64,000 bases of DNA. It comes from Synechococcus sp. A10-1-5-1. Its GTDB lineage: Bacteria; Cyanobacteriota; Cyanobacteriia; PCC-6307; Cyanobiaceae. The position numbers and the translations under genes were made by a program. The stretch is taken from NCBI RefSeq assembly GCF_023115425.1, contig NZ_CP096032.1, positions 682,001-746,000 of the forward strand, read 5' to 3'. Every line of letters begins with the position of its first letter. Position 1 is the first letter of the stretch. Of this stretch, positions 7,696-38,145 are shown one piece after another. The notes beneath the pieces are model-generated. The model did no database searches. It saw only the letters and a list, made by a program, of their open reading frames with translations, and was not told the origin of the DNA.

Positions 7696-8362
7696 CGATC
7701 AACCAGCTGATCAAGCCATCGAGCCCCTGCTGCAGGCGAGCGGAGGTTTCAAACAAGCGGGCTTGAGGCGCAACCGCCGCCAGATTGGCGATGGCCAGTT
7801 GTCGATCGAAATCAGCCGCTTTAGCCAAGTCGATCTTGTTGAGCACGACGGCATCCGCCCCCTTAAAAAGGGCCGGGTATTTCAGGGGTTTGTCCTCCCC
7901 TTCGGTGACGGAGAGGATCGCAATCCTGAGCTGTTCGCCGAGATCGAAAGCCGCCGGGCAAACCAGATTCCCCACGTTCTCGATCATCAACAGCCGTAGA
8001 TCATCCGACCCGAGCTCACCCCAGGCCGCACTGACCAGGGCGGCATCGAGATGACAGAGGTCACCCGTGCAGATCTGAAGCGCACGAGCACCAGCGGCCT
8101 GAAGGCGCTGGGCATCGCGCTCGGTCGCCAGGTCCCCCACGATCACGGCCAGTGGACCCATCGGCCACAACCGTGCCATCTGCTCAAGGAGTGCCGTCTT
8201 GCCCGAGCCCGGTGCCGACAGGACATTGACTGCCAGCACGCGATTGGCACGAAACTGCGCGCGATTCAGCTCTGCCTGAAGGCTGTTGCGACTGAGCAGT
8301 CGTTGCTGGAGCACCAGACGTCGGGGGGCCGGATCGGGTTCGCAGCCACAGGTTCCGCACAT
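7679..8362 (-). CDS. hypB: HypB, GTPase for nickel insertion
   Basis: HypB is a SIMIBI-class GTPase that, with HypA, inserts nickel into HoxH. The N-terminus carries the high-affinity nickel motif MCGTCGC (Cys2, Cys5, Cys7). There is no histidine-rich stretch after it, so this HypB is not a nickel-storage type. Walker A is PGSGKT at 51-56. Later motifs include the IENVGNLVCPA segment with the metal-binding Cys, and NKID as the guanine-specificity motif. The 227 residues match the family. The ATG follows the hypA stop directly and the 3' end overlaps hypF. Confidence 0.95.
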   Translation of the reverse strand: MCGTCGCEPDPAPRRLVLQQRLLSRNSLQAELNRAQFRANRVLAVNVLSAPGSGKTALLEQMARLWPMGPLAVIVGDLATERDAQRLQAAGARALQICTGDLCHLDAALVSAAWGELGSDDLRLLMIENVGNLVCPAAFDLGEQLRIAILSVTEGEDKPLKYPALFKGADAVVLNKIDLAKAADFDRQLAIANLAAVAPQARLFETSARLQQGLDGLISWLIDELEH

Positions 8363-16346: not shown

Positions 16347-16679
16347 TCAGCGCTGTGGTGTCTTCAACGTATTGAGATCAACCTGAGTTGAAGGGGCAGC
16401 TCCCAGCCCCTGGCCCTTCACTGAACTCCCCAAGGCCAAGCCAGAGAGGACACTGAGCCCGTGGTTGACGACTTCATCGATCCGGCCGTTTGGGCGATTG
16501 CAGCTAGCAGGCAGCTCCGAAGCCTGTTCGAGCAGGCCCGAGCGATGCAACTGAGCCCAGGTCAGGGCCGTGCAATTGAGCAGATCGAACGCAAGCGTGA
16601 AACCTTGGAAGGCCAAGATCCCAGCTGAGAGGCAAACCAGTAAGCGACGGGACTGCATCGGTGCTCGAGCAATGAACAC
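16347..16679 (-). CDS. Small membrane or secreted protein of unknown function
   Basis: A 110-residue frame (GTG start; an alternative ATG lies at 16656-16658 giving MQSRRLL) encodes a basic N-terminus followed by a hydrophobic stretch, CLSAGILAFQGFTLAFDLL, that looks like a signal anchor. A polar middle with two cysteines and a C-terminal segment with a weak hydrophobic patch follow. I do not recognise the family. It ends six bases before ppsA and may be the first gene of the ppsA-hox-hyp transcript. Opposite-strand frames here are less protein-like. Confidence 0.55.
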   Translation of the reverse strand: MFIARAPMQSRRLLVCLSAGILAFQGFTLAFDLLNCTALTWAQLHRSGLLEQASELPASCNRPNGRIDEVVNHGLSVLSGLALGSSVKGQGLGAAPSTQVDLNTLKTPQR

Positions 16680-16738
16680 CGGAGGGTTCCGGGGCTAACG
16701 AGCGACCAGTTGCACGATGCGGCCGAGATGAGCCATGA

Positions 16739-19944: not shown

Positions 19945-20048
19945 GAAGGCGTACTGGATCGGCCCATGCTGCAGAGCCGGATGGGCACTGTCTGCAGCAT
20001 CGATAGCCAAGGGGCCGGAACCCTTCAGGGTCCTTCACCCCCTTCGCC

Positions 20049-21053
20049 ATGGAGATCAGCGCTGCCGGATTGGACCTGCTCAAAACCTTCGAGGGTTGCC
20101 GGCTGGTGGCCTATCCCGATCCCGGCAGTGGCGGAGAGCCCTGGAGCATTGGCTACGGCCACACCGGTACAGACGTCAGAGCGGGGCTAACGATCAGCCA
20201 GAGGCAGGCTGAACGCTGGCTGCTGGCGGACCTCAAAGACAGCGGGCGCGCCCTCGAGACATTGCTAGCGGGCGTGCCACTGAGCCAGGGACAGTGGGAT
20301 GCGCTGCTGAGCTTCTGCTTCAACGTCGGAGCAGGGGCATTGCAGCGATCCACCCTGCGCAGGCGGCTTCTGGCTGGAGAAGCACCAGCACGGGTGATCC
20401 GCGAGGAGCTCCCCCGCTGGATTCGGGGATCCCGCGGCCCCCTGGCAGGGTTGATCCAGCGCCGAGCCGCCGAGATTCAACACGCCGAACGCCACAGTTC
20501 AATCGCCCTGGCGGTGCCCTACTGCTGCCAGAACAACAGCGCCACAACGCAGGGCCCGCGCATGTGCTTCAGCTCGAGCTGCGCCATGGCGGTGGAGTTC
20601 CTGCGGCCCGGGTTCTTTCAAGGCGGCAGACAGATCGACGACCAGTACCTCGAGCTGGTGCTGCGCTATGGCGAGAGCACGGAGGCAACCGCCCAACTGC
20701 AGGCGATCAAAGCCTGCGGCCTGGAGGCCCAGTTCCGCCAGGATGGATCGATCAAAGACCTGATCGCGTCACTGCAGCAAGGCATCCCAGCGCCGGTGGG
20801 CTGGCTGCATCTCGGATCGGTGGAGCAGCCAACCGGTGTGGGGCACTGGAGCGTGGTTGTGGGCTGGGATCCGAGCAGACGAACCTTTCTGATGCATGAC
20901 CCCAACGGCGAAGCTGATCTCATCGGGGGCGGCTACGTCACGACCGCCATCGGCAGCGGCCAAGCCCAGCGCTATTCCGAGCACAATTGGGGACGGCGCT
21001 GGATGGTGGAAGGTCCAGGCAGCGGCTGGTGGATGGAGTTCCGCAAGCCATGA
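20049..21053 (+). CDS. Phage-type lysozyme (GH24) fused to a C39-like peptidase domain
   Basis: Residues 1-150 are a GH24 lysozyme that cleaves the glycan strands of peptidoglycan, with catalytic Glu15 and Asp24 at T4-lysozyme spacing, the GYGHT segment, and an ALLSFCFNVGAG core helix. Residues from about 165 resemble a C39-like papain fold: PYCCQNNS, a CFSSSCAMAVEF helix that could hold the nucleophile Cys, then GHWSVVVGWD and HDPNGE as candidate His and Asp/Asn positions. No signal peptide is visible, so export would need a holin-like route or lysis. It is probably phage-derived, now cellular; the next small gene overlaps it (ATGA). Confidence 0.85.
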   Translation: MEISAAGLDLLKTFEGCRLVAYPDPGSGGEPWSIGYGHTGTDVRAGLTISQRQAERWLLADLKDSGRALETLLAGVPLSQGQWDALLSFCFNVGAGALQRSTLRRRLLAGEAPARVIREELPRWIRGSRGPLAGLIQRRAAEIQHAERHSSIALAVPYCCQNNSATTQGPRMCFSSSCAMAVEFLRPGFFQGGRQIDDQYLELVLRYGESTEATAQLQAIKACGLEAQFRQDGSIKDLIASLQQGIPAPVGWLHLGSVEQPTGVGHWSVVVGWDPSRRTFLMHDPNGEADLIGGGYVTTAIGSGQAQRYSEHNWGRRWMVEGPGSGWWMEFRKP

Positions 21054-25624: not shown

Positions 25625-26068
25625 ATGAACACCCCCGCCCCCGACTGGATGCCGGATGCCGCGAAAGGCACCTACCCAGGCTGGGTGCAGCGCAAAGCGG
25701 TGACGCTGGCGAAGCGCGATCAGAAACGCGGTGGCAAGGGCAACGTGCAGCAATACCGCCTGGCGATCCACGAAGCGGTGCTGGCCTCAGAGGGCCGCGA
25801 CCACTGGACTGGGGAATGGCTCGCCTGGGAGCTGATCGGCACCTACGACAACCGGGAGGCCGCCACGGGCAAAGGCGAAAGCAAAAAGCGCTACGCGATG
25901 CTCCCCACCATTGATCAGCGCAGCAGCCAAGCAGAACCCGACTTCGTGATATGCGCCTGGCGCACCAATGACGCCAAGCACGACATGACGCCCCAGGAGC
26001 TGTTGCAGTTCTGTTCGGCTGTGATCAAGCACAGCCCGAACTGGGTTGGCTCAGGCACACCGGAATAA
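25625..26068 (+). CDS. Hypothetical protein
   Basis: The 147-residue soluble protein has a lysine/arginine-rich N-terminal part (KAVTLAKRDQKRGGKGNVQQYR) and recognisable elements DHWTGEWLAWELIGTYDN and PEDF-like EPDFVICAWRTNDAKHDMTPQEL. I do not recognise the family. A CCTGG/CCAGG hairpin at 26094-26109 followed by a weak pyrimidine run may end its transcript. Confidence 0.65.
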   Translation: MNTPAPDWMPDAAKGTYPGWVQRKAVTLAKRDQKRGGKGNVQQYRLAIHEAVLASEGRDHWTGEWLAWELIGTYDNREAATGKGESKKRYAMLPTIDQRSSQAEPDFVICAWRTNDAKHDMTPQELLQFCSAVIKHSPNWVGSGTPE

Positions 26069-26196
26069 GGCGGTGCCGCTCAAACCCGCTTGACCTGGTG
26101 AGAGCCAGGCTTTCTCCAAGTTGTTGGCCCGAGTGATCTCAGTGGTTGATGAGCATCAAGGCAAGGCATGGGTGCTGCTGGCGCGAGCCAAGCGCC

Positions 26197-26385
26197 TCAG
26201 CCTCGAGAAGGGTGCTTATCAATCTGCTCGAGCACTGCTCCATCACGATCAACAAGGCGATAGATCCGACCCGTGACCCGTGCCTTCGCTAATGCGGTCA
26301 AATAAGCCTTGAAATGATTGCGTTTACTACCTTCAAGGTGCCAAGACTCTTCATTTGGGGCTCGGCTTTGGATCACAACAGCCAT
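26197..26385 (-). CDS. Small orphan protein (YRLVDRDG type)
   Basis: From the ATG at 26383-26385 the product is 62 residues: a beta strand (MAVVIQSRAP), a helix (NHFKAYLTALAKARV) and the strand-turn RIYRLVDRDGAV. The plus-strand gene at 26725 has the same architecture (strand, helix, YRVIDPD turn), so the two look like diverged paralogues of one small-protein family. Function unknown. Confidence 0.55.
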   Translation of the reverse strand: MAVVIQSRAPNEESWHLEGSKRNHFKAYLTALAKARVTGRIYRLVDRDGAVLEQIDKHPSRG

Positions 26386-26724
26386 CACATTGCCGAAGGT
26401 TGGTGACTGAACCAACTCTCTCTTCGCTATTTGATTTGACCAAAAATCAGTTGATTCACTTTGGGATCAACCAGTCCGATCAGCCCCCCCCCAGAGAACG
26501 CCAAATGCGCTCTTGAACGCAGGGGGCTCAGTGAGAAGCCAATCAACATCACGGCGACGCATCACGCGCGACTGGAGAAAGCAAGCGCTAGCGCTAGCGG
26601 TAGCGGCCGGTGCCGAGCGAGACCTTTCAGTCCCCCATCAGTGGCGTGATCCCAAGAACTTTCTGTCGTTTTCACCCAAAGGGTTCTAACTGACCGACCT
26701 TGTGGCCCCACCTCCGAGACGGGC

Positions 26725-26931
26725 GTGTTCATCATCGAAAGACTCACCAGCAAGGGTTGGGGACAAACCGAGGAACATCCAGACCACGACCTTGCCCACT
26801 TGCACGCAAGGCTGAAGAACTTTGCAGACGGATCGACCTACAGGGTCATTGACCCAGACATGACCATGGTGTGCCTGTTTTCAGGCGGAGCGACGGAATG
26901 CTGGGCCATGGATCAGGCCACCGTTGCATAA
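26725..26931 (+). CDS. Small orphan protein (YRVIDPD type)
   Basis: A 68-residue frame from GTG at 26725 begins with a hydrophobic strand (MFIIERLTSKGW). It continues with a helix (HDLAHLHARLKNFA) and the turn YRVIDPDMTMVCLF, and ends with a short tail. Its layout parallels the minus-strand gene ending at 26197. The ribosome-binding site is unclear. Function unknown. Confidence 0.5.
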   Translation: MFIIERLTSKGWGQTEEHPDHDLAHLHARLKNFADGSTYRVIDPDMTMVCLFSGGATECWAMDQATVA

Positions 26932-26956
26932 CCATGCCAAAAGACAGTGCAATGGC

Positions 26957-27133
26957 TTATGCGCAAATCACCCTCTCGCCGCTGACGAGATCCTGATAGC
27001 TCACTTCAGTCGTTCCGGATTGGACTGAATCCGACTTCAGACCAAGGCGGTAATAGCGCTTGGCTTGAGCCGACCAGAGATCGTCGTGAGATGGATCAGA
27101 GTGAATGCTGGGCTTTAGGCGTGGAATGTGCAT
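26957..27133 (-). CDS. 58-residue orphan protein
   Basis: An ATG-started frame of 58 codons reads MHIPRLKPSI...DLWSAQAKRYYRLGLK...SYQDLVSGERVICA. Composition is protein-like, with a clear amphipathic helix. A TTATAC sequence about 20 bases before the start could be a -10 element giving a short leader. No family recognised. Confidence 0.45.
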   Translation of the reverse strand: MHIPRLKPSIHSDPSHDDLWSAQAKRYYRLGLKSDSVQSGTTEVSYQDLVSGERVICA

Positions 27134-27351
27134 ACATCACGAACTGGAGGGTATAAGAACACAGATGCCAATGAGATTGTCGTTCCATTTGTTCTCGGAT
27201 TGAGATGAACAACGGTTCGATATTCAAACGCTCAGTCGAGCCGATGCCCGTCATGGTGCATGACTGAGGGCCCTAGCAAGGGGGGTGACTCTTGTAAGAA
27301 GATCCTGAAAAACGTATCGCTCTAACGGGAGAAATACGTCACGAAGGAAGG

Positions 27352-27525
27352 ATGGATGGTCTCAGCTATCGCGTTATCCGGTTGAGGAGCTGGATCGTTG
27401 CGGACCAGCGCTCAACGTCTCTTGTGTTCAACTCAACCTTATCACCGGATCAAGCGCGCCACCCTCGGGCCCCACTGCAGGCCACTGATGCGAGCAAAGA
27501 GCCGTTAGGACCAATCGAGCGGTGA
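27352..27525 (+). CDS. Possible 57-residue protein
   Basis: The frame opens with ATG right after AAGGAAGG, a good ribosome-binding site, and reads LSYRVIRLRSWIVADQRSTSLVF before a more disordered tail. It lies in an otherwise empty AT-richer stretch. Only the ribosome-binding site and the N-terminal composition support it. Confidence 0.35.
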   Translation: MDGLSYRVIRLRSWIVADQRSTSLVFNSTLSPDQARHPRAPLQATDASKEPLGPIER

Positions 27526-27580
27526 GGGCCTGATCAAACGTCTCAACCACGCACCGCGTTGGACATGGCCTCACTAGCTG

Positions 27581-27637
27581 CAACTGTGCTCAACACAGTT
27601 GTGTTGCAATAAGCCGGCTTGATAAACGGCTTTTTTA
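27581..27637 (+). terminator. Hairpin plus terminator, probable 3' end of a small RNA
   Basis: A perfect eight-base-pair hairpin (CAACTGTG, loop CTCAA, CACAGTTG; 27581-27601) is followed ten bases later by AAGCCG/CGGCTT and a run of six T's (27611-27636). The pair resembles the end of a small plus-strand RNA begun near 27540, or of the transcript carrying the 57-residue frame. Confidence 0.6.
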
Positions 27638-27749
27638 TATCTGGTGGCAGACGGGGGCACTTCGCCAGCGACTGCTACCGAGCCGGAGAGGCCTCGATGC
27701 ACTCCATCGTGCCGAAGGCTTCACCACAAGGCCTGATGCCATCGTCTTG

Positions 27750-27781
27750 CAAAAAAAAAAACGCCGGTACTCCTACCGGCG
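27750..27781 (-). terminator. Strong minus-strand terminator
   Basis: CGCCGGTA and TACCGGCG pair across a four-base loop, and the minus strand then reads eleven T's. It is the likely end of the transcript of the coiled-coil gene at 27887-28063, about 105 bases upstream. A GTGGAAC/GTTCCAC stem at 27782-27815 lies between. Confidence 0.8.
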
Positions 27782-27886
27782 GTGGAACATCCCGTACCCA
27801 TGCCTTGCGTTCCACAAAGTCTGGCTACGGCTCCAAGCTAAGGACGATGGCGTGTACGTCAGAAGGCCTTAGCAGTTCTTAGGAAC

Positions 27887-28063
27887 CTATTGAGGAGAGG
27901 CAATCGCAAGCTTGCGCTTGAGGTCCTCGTTCTCGTCCTCCAACTCCTGAATGCGTGCTTTGAGTTGATCCACCTCAGACGCTTTCACGCTCAAGGTTGT
28001 GATCGTGGCGTGATAGGTCGAGGGAATCTCCTTAATCCAGGAATCCAGATCGCTGTGTTGCAT
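27887..28063 (-). CDS. 58-residue coiled-coil protein
   Basis: An ATG-started frame of 58 codons encodes MQHSDLDSWIKEIP, a linker, and a charged leucine-heptad helix (VDQLKARIQELEDENEDLKR is part of it) typical of a short parallel coiled coil. A strong terminator follows downstream. The product is likely a small dimerising adaptor; the partner is unknown. Confidence 0.6.
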   Translation of the reverse strand: MQHSDLDSWIKEIPSTYHATITTLSVKASEVDQLKARIQELEDENEDLKRKLAIASPQ

Positions 28064-31940: not shown

Positions 31941-32008
31941 AACCGATCTCTAGCCACGGCGCATCCGCGAAACGGCAGGGAACACTCCAGGTAGCTCCGG
32001 GAGTTCGC

Positions 32009-32617
32009 ATGCATCCATCCGTGCGCCACTGGCTCTGGGTCAGCCGCCTGCATCCGCCCCTTCCCGAGCGCAGCGTGCTGGAGTTGGCGCGCATGATTCA
32101 ACGCTGGCAGCAGCATCCAGGCGGGCCTGATCAGGCGCCCCCAGCGATTCGCAAGCGAGGACGACGGGCCAGGGATCAACTGGTGAGGCACAACCTGGCC
32201 CTGGTGGGATTCAGCTGGAGAAAACAGCACAGCCAGCTCAGCGCAGACGATGCATCAACGGCCGATGCGCTGCAGGAAGGGGCCCTCAACCTGCTGAGGG
32301 CCGCTGAGAAATTTGATCCAGCCCGGGGCTATCGCTTCTCCACCTACGCCAGCTTCTGGATCCGCCGCGGATTGCTGCGTTTTTGCCAGCGCAGCCGCCG
32401 CAGTATTGCCTTCCCCCGCGATCAGGCCGCCCTGGTGCTCAAGGCCCAACAACTCAGCGAGGACAGCCTCCGGCGCAGGGGAATTCAGCCCAGCCTGAGC
32501 TGGCTTGCCGCCCAGCTGAGCACCGCGCAGAAACACATTCAGTCCAGTCAATTAGAAGCCTTGATCCGCAGCTGGAATGACACCCAGACCTGCACAATTA
32601 GGACCATAGCTTCCTAA
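32009..32617 (+). CDS. Sigma-70-like protein lacking region 4
   Basis: Residues 54-133 match sigma-70 regions 1.2-2.4: LVRHNLALV, ALQEGALNLLRAAEKFDPARGYRFSTYA and a tryptophan-containing WIRRGLLRF helix. A region-3-like helix segment follows (about 150-190). The chain ends at 202 with no region 4, so it could bind core polymerase and a -10 element but not a -35 element. It may be a specialised or decayed group 2/3 sigma factor. A second region-4-less relative lies 1.9 kb away. Confidence 0.75.
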   Translation: MHPSVRHWLWVSRLHPPLPERSVLELARMIQRWQQHPGGPDQAPPAIRKRGRRARDQLVRHNLALVGFSWRKQHSQLSADDASTADALQEGALNLLRAAEKFDPARGYRFSTYASFWIRRGLLRFCQRSRRSIAFPRDQAALVLKAQQLSEDSLRRRGIQPSLSWLAAQLSTAQKHIQSSQLEALIRSWNDTQTCTIRTIAS

Positions 32618-32648
32618 TCCAAAACCAAAGAAATAGACCCCAACGCGC

Positions 32649-32662
32649 CTCTAGCGCTAGAG
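32649..32662. promoter_or_regulatory. Perfect 14-base palindrome upstream of the LuxR-type gene
   Basis: CTCTAGCGCTAGAG is a perfect inverted repeat ending 22 bases before the GTG start of the LuxR-type regulator. Its position suits an operator, possibly autoregulatory, but no consensus is known to me. Confidence 0.35.
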
Positions 32663-32684
32663 AGCAGATGGCAATCCAGGGGCC

Positions 32685-33380
32685 GTGAATCCTGAGCAAA
32701 CCCGCCAGCAGATTCAGGCTCTACAGCGGGCCATTGCCGAGCTGCAGCAGGGCTGGAGGATTGCCGTCTGCTCTGCCGATGAACGCCTGATTGGGATTGC
32801 GTCCCTGCTGCTCGAGGGCTGTGAGTTTGCGGCAGACTCCATCGCTGAACTACTCGCTCTTCCACTCCCCAGCCAGCACAACTTGCTGCTGATTTGTGAT
32901 GATGAGCTGGCCGATGGCGGGGCCCTGGAGCTAATCGAGCGACTGCCCCAGGCCACGGTTCTGGTCTGCCTTGATGCCTCGATTGCGCAAGAGCGACTGA
33001 ACCAGCTCTGGCGCAGTGGAGCGGCTGGTCTTTGTTGCCGCCAACACTGCGGCGGCGGCCGGCTGCTCCAGGCGGTACTGATGCTGATGCGCGGCCTGCA
33101 GTCTCTCGATCCCCTGCTGGGGGAGCGGCTGCGCGAACAACCCCCGCGGCTCATTCCCCTACGCAACAACGAGCAGCACCTGCTGGAGCTGCTCGCCCGG
33201 GGCTTCAACAGCCGGGAGATCGCGGCGCTGGAGCAACGCCGCAGCGACACGATCCGCCGTCAACTCAGCGCGCTGTACCGCAAAGTTGGCGTTCGTGACC
33301 AGCGCGCCTTGATCGCCTGGGGGCTCGGACACGGCCTTGTGCGCCCCCGCGACCTGGCCTGCCGCACACCAGATCACTGA
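32685..33380 (+). CDS. LuxR-type regulator with a degenerate receiver
   Basis: The GTG-started 231-residue protein has an N-terminal receiver-like domain with a coiled lead-in (residues 1-30), a possible Asp in LLLICDDELADG, but no conserved Lys after the later strand (GLCCRQ instead). The C-terminal 60 residues form an HTH_LuxR domain (LLELLARGFNSREIAALE, then TIRRQLSALYRKVGVRDQ). It probably binds DNA as a dimer without canonical phosphorylation. It sits between two region-4-less sigma-like genes. Confidence 0.8.
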   Translation: MNPEQTRQQIQALQRAIAELQQGWRIAVCSADERLIGIASLLLEGCEFAADSIAELLALPLPSQHNLLLICDDELADGGALELIERLPQATVLVCLDASIAQERLNQLWRSGAAGLCCRQHCGGGRLLQAVLMLMRGLQSLDPLLGERLREQPPRLIPLRNNEQHLLELLARGFNSREIAALEQRRSDTIRRQLSALYRKVGVRDQRALIAWGLGHGLVRPRDLACRTPDH

Positions 33381-33720
33381 GTTGCGGGGCCTCAAGAAGC
33401 GGCAACAGATCCAGCAACTTGAACTGATCACTCCGGCTCGGGAGCCATCCCGCGAGGGATTGGCAATCCCCCAGAGGCACAGGACGGGGCAACGGCAACA
33501 GCCGCCCGAGCATCGGTAGCCAGAGATCCCCAGACCAGGGCTCAAAGCAGCTGATCTTAGCGATGGTGCTGATCGCCTCCGCCGCCGGACTCAGTGCAGA
33601 AAGATAAAAAAGCGTTGGCAGCTTGTCCAGCGGCAGAGGCAAGGGCAGCCACATCCCCCGCTCGCAGGCGATGGCCATCGCCTGGCGGTGGTGGGCGGTC
33701 AAGAGCAATTGGGTGGCCAT
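33265..33720 (-). CDS. Hypothetical protein convergent with the LuxR-type gene
   Basis: From the ATG at 33718-33720 the first 115 residues look genuine (MATQLLLTAHHRQAMAIACE, LPTLFYLSALSPAAEAISTIAKI, FEPWSGDLWLPMLGRLLPLP). The last 36 residues are arginine-rich and antisense to the LuxR gene, giving a 116-base convergent overlap. A lost stop or frameshift near 33380 is likely, so the true end is uncertain. I do not recognise the family. Confidence 0.5.
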   Translation of the reverse strand: MATQLLLTAHHRQAMAIACERGMWLPLPLPLDKLPTLFYLSALSPAAEAISTIAKISCFEPWSGDLWLPMLGRLLPLPRPVPLGDCQSLAGWLPSRSDQFKLLDLLPLLEAPQLSDLVCGRPGRGGAQGRVRAPRRSRRAGHERQLCGTAR

Positions 33721-33913
33721 GGGTTCCGGGCTTTCTTTCCCGGTTCTGGCTTCCGCCATCTCCCCACCGCCGCCCACAACCGTGGCGCTTCTGCGCACAG
33801 CTGTGGGGAGCTGATCTCCGTCACTGGGGTTTTCAGCCCTCAGGCTGCCCCGTTCTTTGGCCTTCTTTTGGCTTCTGTCGCCGCGGGTAGCCTCCCGCAC
33901 CTGTTTTCACACC

Positions 33914-34321
33914 ATGCGAACGCCCCTCACCCCAGAGCAACGCCGCTTTGCCAGCCAGCACCTGGGCCTGGCCCGTCAACAAGCCCGCCGCTGGGGCATG
34001 CCACTCGACGAGTTGCTCAGCCCGGCCTACGAAGGACTCTGCAAAGGCGCGGCCCAATTCGATTCCCGCAAGGGCTACCGCCCCTCCAGCTACCTGGTGA
34101 GCAAGGTCAAAGGGGAGCTCTTGCATCACCTGCGCGACACCGGCTTCGCGGTCCGCATCAGCCATCGCTACCGCGAGCTCTGGGTCAAGGCCCGCCGCTG
34201 GCTGGAACTGGACCTCGCCGATTCGGAAATCGCCATCCGCCTGGGGATCCCTCTGGCCCAATGGCTCGATTGCCGCCAGGCCTGCGGACTGCGTCCCATC
34301 CCTTTGGCCCCGGAACCCTAG
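33914..34321 (+). CDS. Short sigma-70-like protein lacking region 4
   Basis: The 135 residues contain LDELLSPAYEGLCKGAAQFDSRKGYRPSSYLVSKVKGELLHHLRD, a sigma region 2 of the SigF-like type (about 31-75). A region-3-like segment follows (RYRELWVKARRWLEL, then a SEIAIRLGIPLAQW helix-turn-helix). It stops there, well short of a full sigma factor. It may act as a modified sigma or an antagonist that occupies core polymerase. Start ATG 33914; a longer frame adds only upstream non-coding sequence. Confidence 0.7.
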   Translation: MRTPLTPEQRRFASQHLGLARQQARRWGMPLDELLSPAYEGLCKGAAQFDSRKGYRPSSYLVSKVKGELLHHLRDTGFAVRISHRYRELWVKARRWLELDLADSEIAIRLGIPLAQWLDCRQACGLRPIPLAPEP

Positions 34322-34341: not shown

Positions 34342-34653
34342 TTGCGACTTCAAGACCTAACCCAACTGCTAACTGGACTGCTGCCTCTCTTCAGCCAGCG
34401 GCGCCCTGCCCCCAGTCCCCGCCGCCACTCCTTTGAAAAGGGGGACTGGCTGGCGGAACTCGAGCTGCTGCAACTCGCCCAGGAACTCAAAACCCTGGCC
34501 GATCAACGCGGCGGTTTTGAAGCGGAGCTCTTCGATCTGATGGTCTCCATTGCCGATGTCCTGGAGCTCGACCACGGCTGGCAGCGCAGCCAATCCAACC
34601 AATGGTTAGTTCGGATGGGGCTCTGGGAGGAGGACCTCTCCGCTGGGGCCTAG
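34342..34653 (+). CDS. Hypothetical helical protein
   Basis: A 103-residue frame starting at TTG 34342 reads RLQDLTQLLTGLLPLF, then WLAELELLQLAQELKTLADQRGGFEAELFDLMVSIADVLE and a tryptophan-rich end. It is largely helical and soluble and follows the sigma-like gene by 20 bases. No ATG is available, so the start is tentative. It converges with the next gene, sharing stop bases. Confidence 0.55.
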   Translation: MRLQDLTQLLTGLLPLFSQRRPAPSPRRHSFEKGDWLAELELLQLAQELKTLADQRGGFEAELFDLMVSIADVLELDHGWQRSQSNQWLVRMGLWEEDLSAGA

Positions 34654-38073: not shown

Positions 38074-38145
38074 TGGGTCGTCTCAGATTCGAACTGAGGA
38101 CCAATCGGTTAAAAGCCGAGTGCTCTACCGCTGAGCTAACGACCC
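38074..38145 (-). tRNA. tRNA-Lys (anticodon UUU)
   Basis: The minus strand folds into a full cloverleaf of 72 nt. The acceptor stem is GGGTCGT/ACGACCC, the D-arm starts GCTCAGCGGTAGAGC, the anticodon loop is CTTTTAA, and the T-loop is GTTCGAATC. The CCA end is not encoded. A terminator follows directly. Confidence 0.95.

Follow-up and report, generated by a model that had tools for sequence, protein, structure and literature searches.

Short sigma factors and a recurrent upstream box in Synechococcus sp. A10-1-5-1: a probable phage-late-type promoter system with lysis genes among its candidate targets

The late promoters of phage T4 have no -35 element and are the best-known case of a sigma factor without region 4 acting on promoters of this kind. 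Replacement of sigma70 by gp33 and gp55 for the T4 late genes is described in a passage of PMC11598898, while for Bacillus subtilis passages of PMC10141391 present SigO-RsoA, where sigma functions are split over two proteins, and Xpf of the defective prophage PBSX, a phage-derived sigma-like factor tied to cell death and listed with regions 2 and 4. Sigma genes are also present in cyanosiphophages. Passages of the P-SS2 paper report a group 2 and group 3 sigma pair and expect the former to act on canonical promoters and the latter to serve a specific regulon (PMC2784084), a review mentions that the S-CBS2 RpoD altered growth and metabolism when expressed in S. elongatus (PMC10452541, in a passage), and both phages are placed in one cluster in a passage of PMC6157547. 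Here we report on five neighbouring genes of Synechococcus sp. A10-1-5-1, two encoding short sigma factors (sigA and sigB), one a LuxR-like regulator, and two conserved proteins (c3 and c4), which lie in a stretch of 64,000 nucleotides (nt; contig NZ_CP096032.1, positions 682,001 to 746,000, forward strand), here called the window (Table 1). Comparison of sequences leads us to favour, with moderate confidence, the explanation that this cassette is a phage-late-type promoter system, left from a phage-related integrative element and kept as a lysis regulon.

As in the cassette, homologues of both sigA and sigB are found in the cyanosiphophages P-SS2, S-CBS2, S-CRES1 and S-CRES3, where the GGNANNCT core likewise precedes late genes, and no Pfam region 4 was detected in the five phage proteins scanned. 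The phage SigF-like proteins differ in that they run approximately 70-100 residues past the end of the host sigB product of 135 amino acids (aa), and the host set differs in having the LuxR-like gene, c3 and c4 and no virion genes. If our reading is right, the likeness to gp55/gp33 is that of a region-4-less sigma on -35-less promoters; however, no gp33 or clamp partner was identified, sigB is SigF-like by sequence, and a gp55 chain is absent among the structure and sequence matches listed. Unlike the SigO-RsoA case, both cassette sigmas carry region 2. With Xpf the cassette shares the character of a resident phage-derived sigma-like factor, its link to lysis being probable, but the window genome is without virion genes of the type searched and Xpf has region 4. 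The literature covered, at the level of titles and passages and with few subscription journals, contained no description of this motif, cassette or element.

The genome containing the window, that of a freshwater picocyanobacterium, is closed and 2.4 Mb in size, with 12 matches to sigma region 2; the relatives used for comparison are species representatives, many of them incomplete, with gene starts taken from alignments or open frames. Pfam Sigma70_r2 is matched by sigA (202 aa) at 49.2 bits and by sigB at 29.1 bits, both above the cut-off of 24, and no region 4 match was obtained for either, nor for five other sigB copies scanned. Whole-sigma profiles match both proteins from region 2 into region 3 and then end, in agreement with the initial annotation, according to which both genes retain region 2 of sigma-70 with some of region 3 and stop before region 4. 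The nearest factors to sigA are of the cyanobacterial RpoD/SigA type, with scores far below the curated NCBIfam cut-offs, and the best of 22 profiles for sigB is NF005644 SigF (E-value 2.2e-14; 53.8 bits, with 261 as the curated cut-off). Structure prediction, proposed earlier as a check, was run for sigB and gave an AlphaFold2 model (mean predicted local distance difference test score, pLDDT, 83.1) with sigma chains, i.e. SigA, FliA and RpoS, as top Foldseek matches (best E-value 1.2e-3). We placed the start of sigB at the ATG at 33914, within a longer frame that begins at 33857. The window sigB also lacks four region 2 residues that are present in the other 17 aligned copies.

Among 50,697 phage records the best matches to sigB are the SigF-like proteins of S-CRES3, S-CBS2, P-SS2, S-CRES1 and S-CRES2 (37-40% identity), and in the four phages with maps examined this gene adjoins the large terminase gene; an RpoD-like sigma matching sigA is also present in P-SS2, S-CBS2 and S-CRES1. 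In a tree of 20 sequences the sigB copies form a group (support 0.98) and the phages a separate one (0.92), and open reading frames (ORFs) from prophages of related genomes group with cyanobacterial SigF (0.93). The sigB and phage proteins have in common S/T/P-H-K/R-x-R-E-x-W just past region 2, which is absent from the other aligned sequences. A scan of IMG/VR with the sigB alignment gave no relative, the peptide patterns probably being too strict, since isolated phages do have sigB relatives. The prophage ORFs represent a second kind of short SigF-like sequence (L246 7996-8331, minus strand; L247 16595-16945, minus; L248 3447-3809, plus; L249 14371-14736, minus), near terminase matches, with no room for region 4 and no GGNANNCT box nearby. 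Given these four stretches, from three genomes, the notion that the box accompanies every SigF-like phage gene was dropped.

The box was first noticed as a repeated GGNANNCTA upstream of genes in S-CRES1 and S-CBS2, which constitute the discovery set; S-CRES3, P-SS2 and four phages without a SigF-like match served as checks. GGNANNCTA is located 12-75 nt before 22 of 97 plus-strand genes in S-CRES1 and 28 of 84 in S-CBS2, and 179 permuted motifs subjected to the same test gave means of 1.44 and 1.34, respectively, with a maximum of 5. With a start codon 26-33 nt downstream, the motif has 22 sites in S-CRES1, 24 in S-CBS2, 19 in S-CRES3 and 11 in P-SS2, ranking first of 180 in all four phages (permutation means 2.2-3.3; next best in P-SS2, 10), and in the phages without a SigF-like match the counts are 0 (S-CBS3), 0 (S-CBS1), 1 (KBS-S-2A) and 0 (S-LBS1). 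When all motifs of the form XX.X..XX were counted, GG.A..CT took first place in S-CRES1, with 26 of 75 ORFs where 3.1 were expected, and in P-SS2, with 19 of 81 where 2.2 were expected, but not in S-CBS3 or S-CBS1. Conservation in the phage profile is limited to the GGNANNCTA block, and no common -35 was visible by eye upstream of the phage boxes. The box-positive phages are mutually related and the cases are therefore not independent.

In the window the GGNANNCT core is positioned 28-32 nt ahead of sigA, sigB, c4 and the genes for an endolysin and a small membrane protein. Among host loci the box was found upstream of the genes for the integrase (7/7), membrane protein (21/22), endolysin (15/16), c4 (7/9), sigA (14/21), sigB (15/26) and phosphoesterase (2/10), and before other genes in none of 130 upstreams representing 14 gene classes, including the LuxR-like, c3, primase and helicase genes. 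One class of small gene, TM74, was left out of this count, and the box is seen before it in several loci. Counted by locus, 25 of 26 membrane protein upstreams and 18 of 19 same-genus endolysin upstreams have the box, as do none of three endolysin relatives outside the genus. Many of the host loci are related, such that these counts are not independent, and the misses before sigA and sigB are in part due to uncertain gene starts, while others are real. Upstream of sigA in G021 (L084, approximately 7976-8006) the box is surrounded by a perfect inverted repeat, possibly a hairpin or an operator. The earlier suggestion was that truncated sigma factors could recognise extended -10 promoters. Promoters without a -35 element appear to be favoured by three observations: GGNANNCT lies at a near-fixed distance before both sigma genes and the lysis genes, the same core precedes late genes in four phages that have a SigF-like relative, and four phages that have none lack it.

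The box might instead be an operator or a leader-RNA element on which a translational factor or a dimeric regulator, conceivably the LuxR-like protein, acts, with ordinary sigmas responsible for transcription. The rigid distance between box and start codon would fit this, as would the partial dyads into which several endolysin boxes extend and the inverted repeat in G021. The dyad is, however, not general, and the phage profile conserves the GGNANNCTA block alone. The box-bearing phages also have the SigF-like gene, the box is missing from the four phages that lack this gene, and none of the genes annotated near the phage sigma genes is LuxR-like. We consider this alternative unlikely.

The lysis genes lie apart from the cassette in the window. 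In the endolysin a phage lysozyme domain is combined with a C39-like peptidase domain, and the membrane protein, with one strong hydrophobic segment (two in its L136 relative) and no PHROG match, is encoded divergently beside the endolysin in G014, L136 and L138 and is a candidate holin. In L136, L137 and L138, which are Cyanobium-type, the endolysin and membrane protein genes are directly beside a cassette with a short sigA that includes region 2. In 25 same-genus genomes, including that of the window, sigB (E-value below 1e-50) and the membrane protein gene are both present in 14, both absent in 7 and one alone is present in 4 (Fisher p 0.002). The order sigA, LuxR-like gene, c3, sigB recurs in same-genus genomes, and Vulcanococcus, Synechococcus and Cyanobium are among the names of the relatives (19 named loci). 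The possible uncharacterised regulatory module of the initial annotation is supported, as a conserved one, but the scope of three genes is not: related genes reach upstream in the window to 16347, and the module, which has phage relationships, comprises five genes or more in addition to its distant targets.

Several observations weigh against sigB as a reader of the box in a lysis regulon. The prophage stretches with the other SigF-like branch are without the box, 9 of the 14 listed window box sites have no assignment to the system, G005, G016 (copy b) and G024 have a degenerate box before sigB, and the ninth base of the box differs between phages and hosts. Taken by itself, the five-letter box shows no enrichment in the GC-rich loci of the hosts, with 101 sites compared to a permutation mean of 62.7 and six permuted motifs at 108-147. 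Genome-wide, CGGAACCCT followed by a start gave 11 matches and the reversed control also 11, with three of ten distinct sites preceding genes that belong to the system in the window; for a simpler pattern the counts were 15 vs 4. Finally, the membrane protein gene occurs without a close sigB in G001 and G011 and the reverse applies to G010 and G019, all four genomes being 82-89% complete.

The element context is seen in relatives. A divergent rep gene, a helicase gene (DnaB-like) and a primase gene (DnaG-like) border the cassette in G005, G007, G008, G014, G016, G017 and G024, and a gene of the exonuclease/phosphoesterase family is present downstream; of the two copies in G014, one showed only part of rep. 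In four of these genomes, G008, G014, G016 and G017, there follow c4, a pair of small genes with a relative in P-SS2, a P-SS2-related integrase gene and a tRNA-Lys(TTT) gene that adjoins a gamma carbonic anhydrase gene. The corresponding tRNA-Lys of the window is 3.4 kb to the right of c4, with a desaturase gene and one other gene between. G014 has a second element on the left and a 48-base repeat that includes the last 44 bases of the tRNA; its loci (L089, L111, L112, L090 and L113) show tandem elements at one tRNA-Lys, with partial copies of the integrase and small genes and a broken sigB. Of 20 genomes examined, eight contain a relative of the helicase, and these eight also have a close integrase (at least 72%) somewhere, though not adjacent to the cassette in G005, G006, G007 and G024; the cassette-only genomes have neither, save a 37% integrase match in G021, and no element primase, helicase or integrase was found in the window genome.

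Compared with the structural genes of S-CBS2 and S-CRES1 (those of P-SS2 were not queried), the element stretches gave lysozyme alone among the matches listed. Queries with the S-CRES1 terminase and capsid matched 5 of 25 genomes (G004, G006, G007, G008 and G015; G016, G017, G019, G021 and G024 were outside this search) and had no match in the window genome, for which a full prophage was accordingly rejected. Phage satellites and tycheposons have an integrase at a tRNA 3' end, a helicase and a primase, and may occur in tandem; the elements of the four relatives are alike in these respects, with tandem copies in one, and unlike in being marked by a sigma pair with its own box. A satellite gene profile, with integrase and replication genes and no capsid genes, is found in G008, G014, G016 and G017 as far as seen, and is lacking in the window genome. 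The simplest history is probably that the element form came first and that an element lost its mobility and left the sigma cassette, but the host cassette may instead have come first.

Retention of the cassette after the loss of mobility genes could also reflect a defence function, in which the late sigma of an infecting cyanosiphophage fires the host boxes and causes early lysis, the resident sigmas being secondary. The box core and its distance to the start are alike in phage and host, and lysis genes are among the targets, which speaks for such a function; the ninth box base nevertheless differs, and the resident prophages of related genomes are without the box. We regard defence against infection as rather improbable.

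The two sigma genes appear to have separate histories, with sigB short throughout and sigA shortened in the window clade. Longer sigA copies, with approximately 100 additional residues (301-321 aa), are present in G005, G007, G008, G014 (twice), G016 (twice), G017, G024, L134 and L139, and those of L136-L138 have 228-239 aa. Region 4 scores above the Pfam cut-off in both shorter forms scanned (L136 and L138) and in none of five 300-aa copies (L093, L139, L134, L095 and L092; one weak match, 13.1 bits), where it was recognised visually and from an alignment to the L136 and L138 forms. As Pfam has no match above cut-off there, region 4 of sigA is judged to be degenerate in the element copies; the window clade lacks it. 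Between sigA and the LuxR-like gene of the window there are only 67 bases, and therefore the DNA for the C-terminal part is gone rather than interrupted; given the longer relatives, its loss in the window clade is secondary. For sigB, 24 of 27 host copies have 135-151 residues, and the other three are L135, which extends to 181 residues with no match to region 4, and two broken copies (L140 and one of G014).

The lack of region 4 in both window sigmas, secondary in sigA, would also suit decoys or anti-sigma-like proteins that bind and block core polymerase and have no promoters of their own. A gene-class-specific box tied to the SigF-like branch needs a reader, which such proteins would not provide, and we regard blocking as very unlikely.

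The arrangement in the window, with the same desaturase neighbour, is found in five close species (G013, G019, G021, G012 and G003). Pairwise ratios of non-synonymous to synonymous substitution rates (dN/dS) over the six are 0.07-0.22 for sigB, 0.12-0.28 for the LuxR-like gene, 0.10-0.37 for c4 (the G012 frame, as cut, contains a stop), 0.19-0.59 for sigA and 0.18-0.53 for c3, the last a rough value owing to overlap with the LuxR-like gene; the housekeeping neighbour, gamma carbonic anhydrase, has approximately 0.05. With dN/dS below 1, all five genes are maintained, sigA and c3 least strictly. Full-length relatives at the same loci had been named as grounds for taking the sigma genes as pseudogenes. 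Longer relatives exist for sigA, but its short form is under purifying selection in six species and sigB is short in nearly all host copies; dN/dS together with a truncation common to six species rules out simple pseudogenes. That the window cassette is a functionless, slowly decaying remnant, as the missing element genes, the shortened sigA and its upper dN/dS value might suggest, is highly improbable given the values below 1 in all five genes and the truncation and boxes alike in six species.

The initial annotation had also pointed to a LuxR-type gene without the conserved receiver Lys, and the family bears this out. None of 18 aligned sequences has Lys at this position (two have one a few residues beyond), and there is no match to Pfam Response_reg. 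The GerE domain is matched weakly by the window protein (E-value 0.049, below cut-off) and by 16 of the 18 (best 3.4e-8), and four of the 18 also match Sigma70_r4_2 (best 7e-4); one may speculate that the LuxR-like helix-turn-helix supplies the function of region 4. The interval between c3 and sigB has at least one CCCAC-N4-GTGGG-type palindrome (at most one mismatch) in 22 of 22 regions and at least two in 13, in total 37, where random stretches taken from these loci would give 0.48, and these are candidate sites for the LuxR-like protein; over the whole window, at two mismatches, the palindrome is not enriched (37 found, 61.85 expected), and the c3-sigB interval alone is conspicuous. The gene c3 is antisense to the LuxR-like gene and overlaps its 3' end. 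Its predicted structure (mean pLDDT 81; last 31 residues without confidence) resembles PUA-like domains (ASCH, YTH) with modest scores, i.e. Foldseek E-values to 4.4e-4 with a template modelling (TM) score of approximately 0.33, and VIA Z to 6.7 over 105 residues at 3.9 Å.

Table 1. Coordinates of the cassette, its boxes and associated features in the window
Feature	Position	Strand	Remark
sigA	32009..32617	+	RpoD-like sigma with region 2 and some of region 3; region 4 lost in window clade
LuxR-like regulator	32685..33380	+	degenerate receiver
c3	33265..33720	-	conserved protein; predicted PUA-like (ASCH/YTH-like) fold
Two CCCAC-N4-GTGGG-type palindromes	33773..33807	no strand	21 bases apart; candidate operators
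sigB	33914..34321	+	SigF-like sigma ending before region 4
c4	34342..34653	+	conserved protein, 103 aa, no known function; TTG start; next after sigB
Endolysin	20049..21053	+	phage lysozyme domain and C39-like peptidase domain
Small membrane protein	16347..16658	-	103 aa; candidate holin
Box GGAACACT	31979..31986	+	30 nt before sigA
Box GGTAGCCT	33886..33893	+	28 nt before sigB
Box GGAACCCT	34312..34319	+	30 nt before c4, in sigB end; kept in all six close species
Box GGAACCCT	20017..20024	+	32 nt before endolysin gene
Box GGAACCCT	16683..16690	-	32 nt before membrane protein gene
tRNA-Lys(TTT)	38074..38145	-	element attachment site in four relatives

Two further observations concern the surroundings. 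In two genomes (L097 2087-4764 and L098 3881-5915) a cassette with c4 adjoins a gene which we take to encode a protein like the orange carotenoid protein (OCP). The lowest G+C content of the window, 0.545 compared to approximately 0.63, is at 26001-28000, with no ORF of 120 aa between 26068 and 28147.

In the phage-late-type system that we favour, sigB would bind core RNA polymerase via region 2 and read the short GGNANNCT box, as a -10-like promoter element approximately 28-33 nt before start codons and without a -35, in the manner of a phage late-transcription sigma. As the second sigma of the system, sigA may share these promoters or tune sigB by competing for core. As the box precedes sigA as well as sigB, the system, after a first activation, would reinforce itself, with c4, the endolysin and the candidate holin as output and cell lysis as the probable outcome, and the LuxR-like protein, putatively binding the palindromes between c3 and sigB, may set the trigger. 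More tentatively, this could be a domesticated late system, where two region-4-less sigmas hold the endolysin, the holin-like protein, c4 and their own genes in a self-amplifying lysis switch, such that the cell kills itself upon a phage late programme or an internal signal via the LuxR-like protein.

If this explanation is true, the cassette adds a further case of a region-4-less sigma on -35-less promoters, in the SigF-like branch. It would also provide one short promoter that can be tested for the late gene sets of cyanosiphophages and for integrated elements of freshwater picocyanobacteria, and the same promoter could be tested for a host lysis regulon that has outlasted the replication and integration genes.

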